Below, piece after piece: positions 51,535-55,622 of a DNA stretch of 64,000 nucleotides (its first letter is position 1; every line of letters starts with the position of its first letter). The stretch comes from Exiguobacterium acetylicum DSM 20416 (lineage in GTDB: Bacteria; Bacillota; Bacilli; Exiguobacteriales; Exiguobacteriaceae). The DNA lies in the NCBI RefSeq assembly GCF_000702605.1, contig NZ_JNIR01000001.1, positions 672,501 through 736,500 of the forward strand. The letters run 5' to 3'. A program made the translations under genes and the position numbers. The notes under the pieces were generated by a model. It ran no database searches. It was given only the letters and a program-made list of their open reading frames with translations, and was not told where the DNA came from.

Positions 51535-52332
51535 ATGCATTTCGATCAGGCATTACACCTTTTGCAACAGCTCGGTCCATCGATGGAGCAAAAGGGATTG
51601 CGGATCGCGACGCGCTTCTATGACTCGCTCGAGGCGACGTATGAAGAAGAATTGCGCGCGCTTCGAGAAGCGGGGGCTCAGGATGGAACTCGCGCATTAC
51701 GGATTTTACGCCTGAGTCAATTATTGAATCAGATTACTAACCAACATGAATCGAGTGAACTGTTTAAATTGATTTTATTGAACGAAATCAATCAGACGAA
51801 ATCGTTTCTGCTGACATACCCGGACATCATCAGTCATGAAATTCTAAAAGCCATCCAGATCGAATATGCACTTGAAGAAGATGCACCGTTGCTTCAAGCA
51901 TGGAGTATCGTCCATCATCAACTCGTCGATACGTGCCGGCATTTTTGTAAATACCGCCATGCTGAAAACTGGCGTCAACAAGATATTTTATTAATTGCTG
52001 AAGACCATCACCTCGGGTCCGTCATCGATGAAGCCCGGCATGCGCTCCTGAGCGGTCGCAAAACGACTTTATTACATGTATCGGCTGAGGAACTGGCGGA
52101 ACGCATGTTAGCGAATGTCCTCTCTTTGACGACGAAAGGGATGGTCGTCCACCACATTCGTCAAGAAGGATGGGAACAGCAGATGCACGAGTTCCTGACG
52201 ATGATCACAGCAAATGATCCGATCGTCTTCGTCAGTGGATCGACAAATTTCATTGAAGAAATCCAGCAACGACTTGATCCGTTACCGGTCCTGTTTGGTC
52301 CGTTCGTAGCGGCAAATCAATTACCCTCTTAA
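51535..52332 (+). CDS. Reduced flavohemoglobin-like protein (globin-like plus partial reductase domain)
   Basis: 265 residues against about 400 for Hmp. The N-terminal half follows the Hmp globin: GLRIATRFYDSL keeps the B10 Tyr; the F-helix region reads LNEINQTKSFLLTYPDIISHEILKAI with Thr where the haem-binding His should be; DAPLLQAWSIVHHQLVD matches the G/H helices. The C-terminal half resembles the NAD-binding subdomain (DILLIAEDHHLGSVIDEA, IVFVSGSTNFIEEIQQRL, FGPFVAAN), but the FAD barrel is missing. Haem binding and NO dioxygenase activity are thus unlikely. The assignment is by residue-pattern comparison. Confidence 0.6.
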   Translation: MHFDQALHLLQQLGPSMEQKGLRIATRFYDSLEATYEEELRALREAGAQDGTRALRILRLSQLLNQITNQHESSELFKLILLNEINQTKSFLLTYPDIISHEILKAIQIEYALEEDAPLLQAWSIVHHQLVDTCRHFCKYRHAENWRQQDILLIAEDHHLGSVIDEARHALLSGRKTTLLHVSAEELAERMLANVLSLTTKGMVVHHIRQEGWEQQMHEFLTMITANDPIVFVSGSTNFIEEIQQRLDPLPVLFGPFVAANQLPS

Positions 52333-52334
52333 TG

Positions 52335-52390
52335 AAAAAAGCGACGTGTAACGCTCTGACTGAAGTCGGAGCATGACACATCGCTTTTTT
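52335..52390. terminator. Bidirectional terminator
   Basis: Long hairpin with arms aaaaaagcga / tcgctttttt and inner gtgt/acac and gctc/ggagc stems, between converging genes. Confidence 0.85.
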
Positions 52391-52394
52391 AGCT

Positions 52395-53639
52395 TTAAGC
52401 TGATTTCGTTAAACGCTTCGCACGTTGAATCGACCGGTCGAGTGCGAGATAGACTCCACCCGAGACGCAACAGAGTAATCCGATGAATGCTAAGGCAAAG
52501 TCACCTTTTCCGGAATCAAGGAACAAAGATCCGAGAAGCGGTGCGGTAACGCCGCCAATTAACCACTGAAGACTCGCAGCACCGTTATACGTTCCGCGAA
52601 GATGTTCTGGTGCAATCAAAGCGATGAACGTCATCTGGACAGGGGACATAATCATCTCACCAAGCGTATAGAACGCATAAATCGCAAGCAATACCGTTAC
52701 GAGCACGACATAGTCTGTTCCGAGTGAGAACAGGTAGGACGGCACGAACGCGAGGAAAATCATACCGATGCCGAAAATCGATGCCCCGAGCAACATGACT
52801 TTTCCGAATGCTTTACCTGACAAACGAGCGGCGATCGGGAATTGGAATAAGACGACCATGATTCCGTTTAATGCCATCAAATAAGGGAAAGGATTTTGTT
52901 TCGTCGGCAAGCCCGGTAGTGCCTCCTTCAAGAAGACCGGTAACATGCTCTCAACGAGGGCAAATCCCATCGAGATGAAGACACCCGCACCGATGAAGAT
53001 TAAAAAGACATGGTCCTTCCGTAACACGGTGAGTGGGGACACTTTGACTTCGTCTGTCTTTTCAATATACTCCGGTTTCGTTTCTTCGATGAAGAAGTAG
53101 AGAACGAGTCCGTACAGGAAAAAGACGAAAGCGGCAGAGTAGAAGATGAGTGAACGGTCGACGAACAAGACGGCACTTCCGAGCAGTGGACCGAATGCTG
53201 CCCCGACGTTATGCCCCATCCGCAATAGACCGAACGATTCGTTCAGGCGTTCTGGTGGCGTGACGTCAGCGACCATTGCGCTTGCAGCCGGATGGAACAG
53301 TGAACTGGATAAACCGAGCAGCGCGTTCAAAGCGAGAAGCGGTCCGAATGAATCGGCGAACGAGAAGCCGATTAGCGCAATGACATCCCCGATGATCGAG
53401 AGGACCATCAGTGGTTTTCGACCGAATTTATCAGCGAAATGACCACCGAGGACGGCGCCGACGAGTGACATGATCGGTCCGGTCGCCATGATGACACCGA
53501 CCAAAAAGTAGGAATCGAGACGATCCGCATAATACAGAACTAAAAATGGTGCAATCATGAACATCATGATTCCCGTGATCGTTTCCCCGACGAACCGGAT
53601 CCAGATGTTACGATCAAGCTGTTTGAGTGCGTTAAACAT
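52395..53639 (-). CDS. MFS drug efflux transporter behind a leader-peptide attenuator
   Basis: 414 residues, about 12 membrane segments. Motif A reads GGHFADKFGRKP between TM2 and TM3, and GPLLGSAV fits the motif-C region of drug antiporters. AAGGGG eight bases before ATG. The 240-nt leader holds its own promoter, a 25-codon ORF, a hairpin and an intrinsic terminator (see those entries). That arrangement implies induction by a ribosome-targeting drug, which this pump would then export. Substrate unknown. Confidence 0.88.
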   Translation of the reverse strand: MFNALKQLDRNIWIRFVGETITGIMMFMIAPFLVLYYADRLDSYFLVGVIMATGPIMSLVGAVLGGHFADKFGRKPLMVLSIIGDVIALIGFSFADSFGPLLALNALLGLSSSLFHPAASAMVADVTPPERLNESFGLLRMGHNVGAAFGPLLGSAVLFVDRSLIFYSAAFVFFLYGLVLYFFIEETKPEYIEKTDEVKVSPLTVLRKDHVFLIFIGAGVFISMGFALVESMLPVFLKEALPGLPTKQNPFPYLMALNGIMVVLFQFPIAARLSGKAFGKVMLLGASIFGIGMIFLAFVPSYLFSLGTDYVVLVTVLLAIYAFYTLGEMIMSPVQMTFIALIAPEHLRGTYNGAASLQWLIGGVTAPLLGSLFLDSGKGDFALAFIGLLCCVSGGVYLALDRSIQRAKRLTKSA

Positions 53640-53675
53640 AGTGAAAACCCCTTATATTCCGTTTTTAGACAATAG

Positions 53676-53711
53676 AAAAGACGGATACGCACAAATATGG
53701 GCATACCCGTC
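53676..53711 (-). terminator. Attenuator terminator in the MFS leader
   Basis: On the minus strand GACGGGTATGC pairs with GCGTATCCGTC (11 bp, two G-U), then TTTTCT. It lies between the leader hairpin and the MFS start. Confidence 0.8.
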
Positions 53712-53721
53712 CTAATATAAG

Positions 53722-53756
53722 AGGGCAGCATGTACGTATACGCATACGCACACCCT
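53722..53756 (-). promoter_or_regulatory. Leader hairpin between leader peptide and attenuator
   Basis: Palindromic 35-nt segment closed by agggtg/agccct-type arms (AGGG / CCCT outer, gtatgcgtatac core). Its 5' arm (GGGTGTGCGTA) can also pair in part with GTACGTCACCC at the end of the leader ORF, an alternative structure typical of attenuators. Confidence 0.6.
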
Positions 53757-53769
53757 GCTTAATTAAAAA

Positions 53770-53847
53770 TTAAACGATTGGGTGACGTACAGTTGTAGCC
53801 AATACAAAGACAGTGTGGACAGATGTCCGAGCTTGATAGAATACCAT
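53770..53847 (-). CDS. Leader peptide, 25 residues, probable ribosome-stalling sensor
   Basis: Starts MVFYQARTSVH with a strong ribosome site (AGAAGGAGG eight to nine bases upstream) and ends TVFVLATTVRHPIV. The segment TVFVLATTV resembles the SIFVISTV stall motif of the ErmC leader. Bases 53848-53855, just before the ATG, are perfectly complementary (8 bp, GACGTACA/TGTACGTC) to 53784-53791 inside codons 19-21. Translation or stalling would thus alter the fold. A promoter, hairpin and terminator complete the unit. Stalling and the inducing drug are inference. Confidence 0.75.
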   Translation of the reverse strand: MVFYQARTSVHTVFVLATTVRHPIV

Positions 53848-53886
53848 TGTACGTCTCCTCCTTCTGTAATAGTGAACTTCCTAGTC

Positions 53887-53916
53887 ATCGTAAAGAAGAA
53901 GTAGAGGAATTGTCAA
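53887..53916 (-). promoter_or_regulatory. Promoter of the leader-MFS unit
   Basis: TTGACA (53911-53916), an 18-bp spacer, then TACGAT (53887-53892) on the minus strand. Transcription should start near 53880, about 33 nt before the leader ATG. Confidence 0.7.
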
Positions 53917-54041
53917 CTTTAAATCTGAAAATTAAGTCAATGAAGTGAAATGGACGAGACCTTGAAAATTCGGTATGATAGACTAGTTGCGAAAAAGATT
54001 GATCGGACTTTTGAATATATCGGTGAAAGGAACTACCATAC

Positions 54042-55622
54042 ATGACAAACATTCTACAAACGGAAGTCGAAAAGCGTCGGATTTTCGGCATCATTTCCCA
54101 CCCGGATGCGGGTAAGACGACATTAACTGAAAAATTCCTCCTACACGGAGGGGCAATCCGTGAAGCAGGTTCTGTCAAGGCACGGAAAAACTCGAAATTC
54201 GCGAAATCGGACTGGATGGAAATCGAAAAACAACGAGGCATCTCTGTTACGTCTTCGGTCATGCAATTCGAATACGATAAAAAAATCGTTTCCATCATGG
54301 ATACACCAGGTCACTCGGACTTCGGTGAAGATACGTATCGAATCCTGACAGCTGTTGACTCAGCAATCATGGTCATCGATGCAGCGAAAGGGATCGAGTC
54401 GCAAACGAAGAAACTCTTCCAAGTTTGTCGGATGCGCGGGATTCCAATCTTTACGTTCATCAACAAGATGGACCGTCAAGCACGTGATCCACTCGAATTG
54501 ATGGAAGAACTTGAAGAAGTACTCGGTATTCCGTCTGTTGCTGTGACGTGGCCAGCTGGTTCAGGGCAACAGTTCGAAGGGGTCTATGATCGCGTCAAAG
54601 GACAATTCCATTGTTTCAAGAACGATCGTAAGTCGATCGAACTCGGTGAGGAAGGTCTCGCGAACGAAGAACTCGCGACGACGATCAACTCGGAAATGTA
54701 CGAGACGTTGATGGATGAAGTTGACTTACTCGACGGCGCAGGTAACGAATACAATGAAGAATTGATTGCAAAAGGCGAATTGACTCCGGTCTTCTTCGGA
54801 TCAGCACTCGTTGATTTCGGTGTCACACCGCTCCTCGAGCATTACTTGAACCTGTCTCCTTCACCGACACCACGTGAGTCGAACAAAGGGAAGGTCGAAC
54901 CGGCGCAAGACTTCTTCAGTGGTTTCGTCTTCAAGATTCAAGCAAACATGAACCCGAACCACCGTGACCGGATCGCGTTCGTCCGTATTTGTACGGGTAA
55001 GTTTGATCGTGGAATGGACGTCGTCCTGACACGGACAGGGAAAAAGATGAAGTTGTCGCAATCGACACAATTCATGGCAGATGAGCGTGAAACGGTTAAC
55101 GAAGCGTTCGCGGGAGACGTCATCGGGCTATACGATTCAGGCAACTATCAAATCGGCGATACGATCACGAATGGTGATCCATCACTCCAATATGAAGCAC
55201 TCCCAACGTTCGCACCGGAACTCTTCTTGAAGGTCTATACGAAAAACGCCTTGAAGTCGAAACAGTTCCAAAAAGGTGTCGAGCAGCTCGCGCAAGAAGG
55301 AGCGATCCAAGTCTACAAGACGGAATACAACGAAATCATTCTTGGAGCGATCGGACAACTCCAATTCGAAGTCTTCGAGCACCGGCTCAAAGGTGAGTAT
55401 GGCGTTGACATCTTGAAGGATGCTGCGAACTTCCAAGTCGCGAAGTGGATCAAGCCGGCAGAAGTCGCTGCTGTCAAACAATTGACGGATTCACGGACGG
55501 TACTCGTCTACGACCGCTGGGAAAATGCTGTATTGCTGTTTGCGAACGATTTCGTTTACGAGCGATTCGTTCAGAAAAACGAAGGGACGATCACATTGGT
55601 CGATTCACCGCAACAACTCTAA
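54042..55622 (+). CDS. prfC: Peptide chain release factor 3
   Basis: 526 residues. GTPase motifs G1 SHPDAGKTT, G2 region EKQRGISVTSSV, G3 DTPGHSDFGEDT and G4 NKMDR are those of RF3 rather than EF-G or Tet(M). RF3 releases RF1/RF2 after termination and helps abort miscoded peptides. Monocistronic, divergent from the leader-controlled MFS gene. Confidence 0.95.
   Translation: MTNILQTEVEKRRIFGIISHPDAGKTTLTEKFLLHGGAIREAGSVKARKNSKFAKSDWMEIEKQRGISVTSSVMQFEYDKKIVSIMDTPGHSDFGEDTYRILTAVDSAIMVIDAAKGIESQTKKLFQVCRMRGIPIFTFINKMDRQARDPLELMEELEEVLGIPSVAVTWPAGSGQQFEGVYDRVKGQFHCFKNDRKSIELGEEGLANEELATTINSEMYETLMDEVDLLDGAGNEYNEELIAKGELTPVFFGSALVDFGVTPLLEHYLNLSPSPTPRESNKGKVEPAQDFFSGFVFKIQANMNPNHRDRIAFVRICTGKFDRGMDVVLTRTGKKMKLSQSTQFMADERETVNEAFAGDVIGLYDSGNYQIGDTITNGDPSLQYEALPTFAPELFLKVYTKNALKSKQFQKGVEQLAQEGAIQVYKTEYNEIILGAIGQLQFEVFEHRLKGEYGVDILKDAANFQVAKWIKPAEVAAVKQLTDSRTVLVYDRWENAVLLFANDFVYERFVQKNEGTITLVDSPQQL

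Follow-up and report, generated by a model that had tools for sequence, protein, structure and literature searches.

A conserved leader ORF and competing RNA helices suggest a ribosome-mediated attenuator ahead of an LmrP-like efflux pump gene in Exiguobacterium

What might the leader of an efflux pump gene sense when it carries a short open reading frame (ORF), an intrinsic terminator, and RNA strands with more than one potential partner? The question is raised by a locus in Exiguobacterium acetylicum DSM 20416, within the 64,000-nucleotide stretch of DNA analyzed here (hereafter, the window). A preliminary description had proposed drug-induced ribosome-stalling attenuation, with an Erm-like stall motif in the leader peptide as the sensor. 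On the minus strand, the parts follow one another as that description had it, each at its reported place: a promoter (53887–53916; TTGACA at 53916–53911 and TACGAT at 53892–53887, 18 bp apart), a leader ribosome site, AAGGAGG (53863–53857), a leader ORF of 25 codons (53770–53847; MVFYQARTSVHTVFVLATTVRHPIV), a palindromic hairpin, an intrinsic terminator (53676–53712), and the pump gene (52395–53639, with its ATG at 53639) behind a Shine–Dalgarno sequence of its own, AAGGGG (53648–53653). The ORF is taken from the ORF listing and backed by its conservation; the promoter, both ribosome sites, and the hairpin were read from the sequence, and the terminator was placed by pattern. The hairpin, which follows the leader stop (53758–53725), is present as described but spans 34 nucleotides rather than 35. 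The terminator is likewise present, formed by strands D (53712–53701) and D' (53692–53680) and a U run that in the window strain is just UUUU (53679–53676).

Several strands of this leader can be drawn in alternative helices. Element A (53848–53863) comprises the leader ribosome-binding site and the spacer, and element B (53780–53791) consists of the late leader codons TGTACGTCACCC, with either A or C as its partner. The GACGTACA portion of A (53855–53848), just 5' of the leader ATG, is the perfect complement of TGTACGTC (53791–53784); the 8-bp complementarity reported earlier therefore stands, but it extends from the last base of codon 19 to the first base of codon 22 and is not confined to codons 19–21. 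Element C (53741–53758) is the 5' arm of the 34-nucleotide hairpin, within which GGGTGTGCGTA (53755–53745) can alternatively pair with B, and element E (53723–53739), the 3' arm, is a possible antiterminator partner of D. A further strand, CCCTCTTATATT (53714–53725), is complementary to the pump ribosome site (53658–53648) and takes part in a long helix in the leader fold. As a whole, the 251-nucleotide leader folds at −74.1 kcal/mol, compared with −57.1 (sd 4.6) for shuffled sequences (z −3.69), and none of 200 shuffles folded as well. Simple scans of the window were uninformative for this leader: with 4 promoters found where 3.6 were expected, the promoter on its own was not beyond chance, and the leader terminator was absent from the list produced by the terminator scan. 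An Rfam search of 53400–54100 returned four matches, none of which reached the gathering score (best E 1.1).

The downstream gene encodes a 414-amino-acid protein of the MFS_1 family (Pfam E 6.4e-51). Among 25 PDB sequences its best match is LmrP (6t1z, E 4.1e-14, residues 7–372), an exporter of macrolides, lincosamides, streptogramins, and tetracyclines in Lactococcus. In NCBIfam, the 25 listed matches were to general MFS, multidrug, and tetracycline-pump families, and every one fell below its cut-off. An ortholog is present in a single copy (E ≤ 1e-150) in each of the 38 genomes of the family, with 98–100% identity in the nearest nine genomes, 73–85% in the other ten of the genus, and 66–68% in the sister genus. 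The genes adjoining the pump, compared in the window, L056, and L040, differ between the window and L040: the gene for RF3 (prfC; 54042–55622 in the window) faces away from the pump in the window and, judging by sequence, in L056, while in L040 a 366-amino-acid protein, which we take to be an AI-2E/YtvI-like permease, precedes the pump instead. On the other side, the pump gene converges with an ORF (51535–52332, plus strand; 265 amino acids) that has no Pfam match at 1e-5, and between the two lies a hairpin that has a run of T whichever strand is read (about 52334–52391), probably a shared bidirectional terminator. A plasmid search with the leader plus pump (megablast) gave no match.

If the leader is functional, its parts should recur where the pump recurs. 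The 55 loci collected, from overlapping genomes in two collections, reduce to 34 distinct 230-nucleotide upstream regions, of which 16 belong to the organism's own genus (g1) and 18 to a sister genus (g2); in both groups, the records that have a name carry that of Exiguobacterium. L057 and the distant loci L059–L102 stand outside these counts, as do L054 and L055, whose match begins inside the gene. In all 34 regions, judged by sequence, a leader ORF of 18–25 codons lies behind its own ribosome site (a 31-codon reading for L016 in the script output reflects an earlier in-frame ATG), TTGACA is intact at six of six positions, and a terminator, hairpin plus U run, can be placed by pattern. The leader ORF and the terminator are therefore both conserved in relatives across two genus-level groups; a lack of such conservation would, according to the preliminary description, have refuted it. 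The ribosome site, the ATG, the frame into B, and a stop soon after B are all retained in 34 of 34, and the distance from ATG to B, whether 42, 45, 51, or 57, is in every case a multiple of three. For the outgroup pumps at about 50% identity (L054, L055), a filter for leader ORFs gave none in the upstream stretch covered. The L054 contig (JAFWCB010000029.1, 3063 bases; its pump 47% identical) is labelled Sediminibacterium, from a metagenome-assembled genome of sheep duodenum, and may be mis-binned.

Covariance models of the leader point to a single location in each genome. The g1 model (R1) has a single strong match, immediately ahead of the pump, in 19 of 19 g1 genomes (E 3.4e-34 or better), and the g2 model (R2) does the same in the 18 of 18 g2 genomes examined (E 7.8e-30 or better; G061, a further genome with the pump, stood outside this search). 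Because the models were built from such leaders, the informative part of this result is the absence of a second place: under stricter filters, neither model found a second strong copy in 61 genomes, and in 24 genomes from other families neither gave any match at E ≤ 1. R1 additionally recognizes the leader of G020, a g2 genome (E 0.014), and every g1 genome has a weak R1 match on the opposite strand of the leader itself. Weak R2 matches occur in six g1 genomes, at comparable distances from the pump (the best in G012, E 0.008). One of these six (L119, 1470–1566; G000, E 0.275) lies where another MFS gene, of 390 amino acids, begins; no leader is seen there, and the match was dismissed as chance. 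In two g2 promoters, L040 (about 2750–2780) and L047, the −35 box lies inside a dyad, TTGACACATT...AATGTGTCA; from its sequence, this could possibly be a repressor site in addition to the attenuator.

Five helices compete in these leaders: A:B, B:C, C:E, E:D (the antiterminator), and D:D' (the terminator). The sequences of A, B, and C differ between the two groups, yet pair within each; B reads GTACGTCACCC in most g1 leaders and GGCAGGCGCC, or nearly so, in most g2 leaders. Among 12 representatives, elements matched from the same leader paired better than mismatched elements for A:B (−16.9 vs −12.7, p 0.00045) and B:C (−16.9 vs −12.1, p 0.00025), as well as for C:E (p 0.00075) and D:D' (0 of 20000). 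The same 12 showed no gain from matching for E:D (p 0.68), and unpredicted combinations likewise gained nothing (A:C p 0.20, A:E 0.28, B:E 0.79, B:D 0.84). Much of this signal reflects a single difference, that between the two genera: with g2 taken by itself, the corresponding values are 0.066 for A:B, 0.035 for B:C, 0.84 for C:E, 0.63 for E:D, and 0.012 for D:D', and among the four g1 representatives no helix was informative. A comparison with shuffled elements (p < 0.05) supports A:B in 10 and B:C in all 12 of the representatives, C:E in 4 of 4 from g1 and 2 of 8 from g2, and E:D in 0 of 4 and 6 of 8, respectively. The pairing of the leader end with the next hairpin, as proposed in the preliminary description, is thus upheld by both kinds of test. 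E:D is the weakest helix of the leader (p = 0.16 against shuffled elements for L001). In L049, A, B, and C are unlike those of the other g2 representatives, and A:B (−20.9) and B:C (−15.4) are nonetheless preserved; its peptide at B reads DRSGSS, where 17 of 18 g2 leaders have D-x-x-A-P. For a mutually exclusive anti-antiterminator, antiterminator, and terminator set, the picture is mixed: A:B, B:C, C:E, and D:D' are kept across the clades, and E:D and the single-length folding test described below are uneven. Column-wise covariation of the hairpins, which had been suggested as a check, did not bear out the expectation: counts in g2 were not above those of shuffles, the D:D' and A:B counts suffering from register shifts between subclades, so that the covariation is suggestive, not decisive.

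Pairing over the pump ribosome site may add a possible second, translational layer to such a switch. In the window strain, CCCTCTTATATT compared with shuffled pump ribosome sites gives p = 0.094; across representatives the corresponding values range from 0.088 to 0.246 in the four from g1 and from 0.000 to 0.264 in the eight from g2, six of the eight lying below 0.05. In several g2 leaders, strand C is itself able to pair with the pump ribosome site GCAGGTG.

How these helices might respond to a ribosome was approached by folding. With the ribosome placed on codon 2 or codon 8, modelled by removing A by construction at nascent transcript lengths, B:C pairing rose at several lengths in seven of eight representatives; L022 prefers B:C already while its terminator is still incomplete, and B:C drops back at full length in the four representatives from g1. 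At full length, all eight representatives tested favor the terminator whatever the ribosome state. Any induction would therefore need to be kinetic, and full-length equilibrium folding is unable to show a switch. In single-length folding of 14 representatives, occupancy of codon 2 raised the upstream pairing of D by 2.60 nucleotides on average; among 30 shuffled sets the rise was 0.51 (sd 0.75) and never more than 2.30. Individual leaders vary: D pairing falls from 4.1 to 3.3 in the window's own leader and from 5.7 to 4.1 in L030 when codon 2 is occupied, and is hardly altered in L042, L045, and L049. Mean D pairing is 3.20 with no ribosome (shuffled 3.21), 5.80 with codon 2 occupied (3.72), and 5.06 with the ribosome on B (6.08); in 8 of the 14, D pairing is lower with the ribosome on B than on codon 2. 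These means support a rise on early occupancy; a return to termination with the ribosome on B is not shown by them. When the ribosome was moved along the ORF, the result for the 16 g1 leaders depended on whether A:B can form around it: if not, their mean favored the antiterminator from codon 1 to about codon 17, and if so, at codons 1–5 only. The mean of the 18 g2 leaders in block mode was 4.1 with no ribosome, 5.2–5.9 at codons 1–10, 3.3 at codon 12, and 5–6 again at codons 17–20, a smaller contrast than in g1.

The constraint on the leader peptide itself bears on what a ribosome might be sensing. Outside B, dN/dS is 0.47, 1.07, 0.49, and 0.54 in four subclades, and a fifth shows 48:0 non-synonymous to synonymous pairwise differences; these subclades cover 29 of the 34 leaders and rest on few independent changes. 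In the same strains the pump has a dN/dS of 0.02–0.05. The conservation of the peptide, another suggested check, thus came out against the expectation, the peptide being weakly constrained outside B, and the RNA strands are more tightly conserved than the peptide; values below 1 in three subclades leave room for some peptide constraint. A retained frame into B combined with a replacement-rich peptide indicates that leaders preserve translation through B but their peptide only weakly. All 18 g2 leader peptides begin with MSV, codon 3 varying synonymously and much of the remainder varying, a pattern from which early codons may matter in g2.

The direction of a switch, which we infer from the anatomy and from nascent folding, would be as follows. 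With no ribosome on the leader, A would pair with B, C would fold on E, and the terminator would form. A ribosome held early would cover A and leave B free to take C; E, released by B:C, could then pair with the terminator 5' arm D, allowing RNA polymerase to read into the pump gene. A ribosome finishing the ORF would briefly cover B and so bring back C:E and termination, although the folding test does not, on average, bear this step out. On balance, we slightly favor the view that the leader is a ribosome-mediated transcription attenuator reporting ribosomes arrested at or soon after the leader start codon. The signal would be arrest rather than slow translation in general, the inducers would be drugs that halt ribosomes at initiation or as the first peptide bonds are made (pleuromutilins, lincosamides, streptogramin A, tetracyclines), with some of these inducers also being exported by the pump. 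It is also possible, though we hold this more tentatively, that the leader is a peptide-independent gauge, distinguishing no ribosome from one stuck early and one that has finished, with only the stuck-early state turning the pump on. Were this the case, the leader would answer any drug class arresting initiation or early elongation; its ribosome site would serve as one switch strand and its last codons as the other, and the RNA would lock off when the leader goes untranslated.

The main competing account is nascent-peptide arrest of the ErmC type, in which a macrolide-bound ribosome stalls at TVFVLA (about codon 16) and opens the antiterminator. The likeness of TVFVLATTV to the ErmC segment SIFVISTV, as the preliminary description had it, does exceed that of shuffled peptides in the window strain (p = 0.007), and the same holds for L010 (p 0.0016); the pump resembles LmrP, which exports macrolides; dN/dS is near 0.5 in three subclades; and in the g1 block-mode mean a ribosome as far along as codon 17 or so favors the antiterminator. 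However, the resemblance is not conserved. A loose match is found in 13 of 16 g1 leaders, is missing in L017–L019, and occurs in 0 of 18 g2 leaders, and even near relatives carry S or H at core positions of the segment (FVSA, IHVL). The weak constraint on the peptide when set against that on the pump, and the restriction of the g1 open-mode rise to codons 1–5, also argue against a stall at this position. Conservation and dN/dS do not support the motif as a conserved sensor, and, judged from the sequences, the apparent Erm motif would be at most a clade-specific extra. We therefore regard arrest at TVFVLA as unlikely. Ribosome-stalling attenuation before an MFS pump, as originally proposed, keeps its layout, its conserved leader ORF, and its A:B and B:C helices, but loses TVFVLA as the stall site.

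Weak conservation of the peptide is equally what would be expected if any delay before B would do, as in a general translation-rate sensor in which scarce charged tRNA, (p)ppGpp, or slow ribosomes, and not a drug, set read-through; vmlR is described as inducible by ribosome assembly defects without drug (PMC9226507). But the leader has no run of one codon kind, and the downstream gene resembles a drug pump, not a biosynthetic gene, so this account appears quite improbable. The tighter conservation of the RNA strands and the unevenness of the ribosome-switch folding tests would also suit an RNA that terminates transcription constitutively, or one that is bound by a protein or ligand, with the ORF incidental. 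Such a reading would leave unexplained why ribosome site, ATG, frame to B, and stop after B persist in 34 of 34 leaders at four different lengths, and no Rfam match better than E 1 was found; we give it the least credence of the alternatives. For arrest at or near the start codon, our preferred explanation, precedents exist among characterized leaders.

The closest logic, by analogy, would be that of vmlR in Bacillus, here placed before an LmrP-like MFS pump. The Bacillus subtilis system is described as working by arrest during initiation on a 3-codon upstream ORF (uORF) whose sequence is of little importance (PMC9226507). The two leaders share a uORF with its own ribosome site and an intrinsic terminator, and would share an anti-antiterminator, an antiterminator, a hairpin over the gene's own Shine–Dalgarno sequence (comparable to the pump ribosome-site pairing described above), and initiation arrest as the signal (PMC9226507). 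They also have in common a uORF peptide tolerant of change, as the dN/dS values of 0.47–1.07, against 0.02–0.05 for the pump, suggest in Exiguobacterium. The likeness is one of layout, and the downstream gene of vmlR is an ABC-F factor where here it is an MFS pump; moreover, the vmlR Shine–Dalgarno sequence is single-stranded in the repressed fold (PMC9226507), whereas the ribosome site of the Exiguobacterium leader is predicted to be paired. vmlR-type uORFs also have 3–4 codons, compared with the 18–25 found here. Short uORFs of ABC-F genes are more broadly portrayed as being stalled by drugs with little context-specificity (PMC10201436).

Other leaders share part of this design. The ermC leader resembles that of some strains in its short hydrophobic segment, SIFVISTV; it differs in that the motif is not conserved in Exiguobacterium leaders and that the switch here would act on a terminator. 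The streptococcal mef(E) efflux protein, like the present pump, is an MFS protein. The mef(E)/mel leader is similar in placing leader-peptide transcription attenuation before a macrolide-efflux gene, but its peptide, MTASMRLR, resembles known macrolide stall peptides, unlike the Exiguobacterium leader peptides (PMC4335068). No RLR-type stall peptide lies near the start of any of the 34, the nearest being APLRL near some g2 ends. The bmrB leader of bmrCD in B. subtilis requires leader ORF translation for drug-induced transcription of a multidrug pump, with a terminator, antiterminator, and anti-antiterminator predicted; its ORF, however, has 53 codons with the terminator inside, and its pump is an ABC transporter (PMC4191407). 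The toiL uORF of topAI in Escherichia coli senses several drug classes, tetracycline and retapamulin being sensed at the start codon, but in the model described it controls translation and Rho termination of a toxin–antitoxin operon, with no intrinsic terminator (PMC12121999). What looks particular to the Exiguobacterium leader is a uORF of 18–25 codons whose 3' end is paired and whose own ribosome site acts as a switch strand.

A literature search, with subscription papers outside its reach, found no description of the Exiguobacterium pump leader, which looks like a known kind of antibiotic sensor on a new gene. The fate of the TVFVLA motif is a warning against stall motifs read from single sequences. 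The two diverged leader versions, in the organism's own genus and its sister genus, amount to a natural swap experiment. If the proposed reading is true, attenuation by initiation arrest, known from ABC-F factors (vmlR, cplR), would extend to an LmrP-like MFS pump, and the leader codons of Exiguobacterium would owe their conservation more to RNA pairing than to the peptide that they encode.
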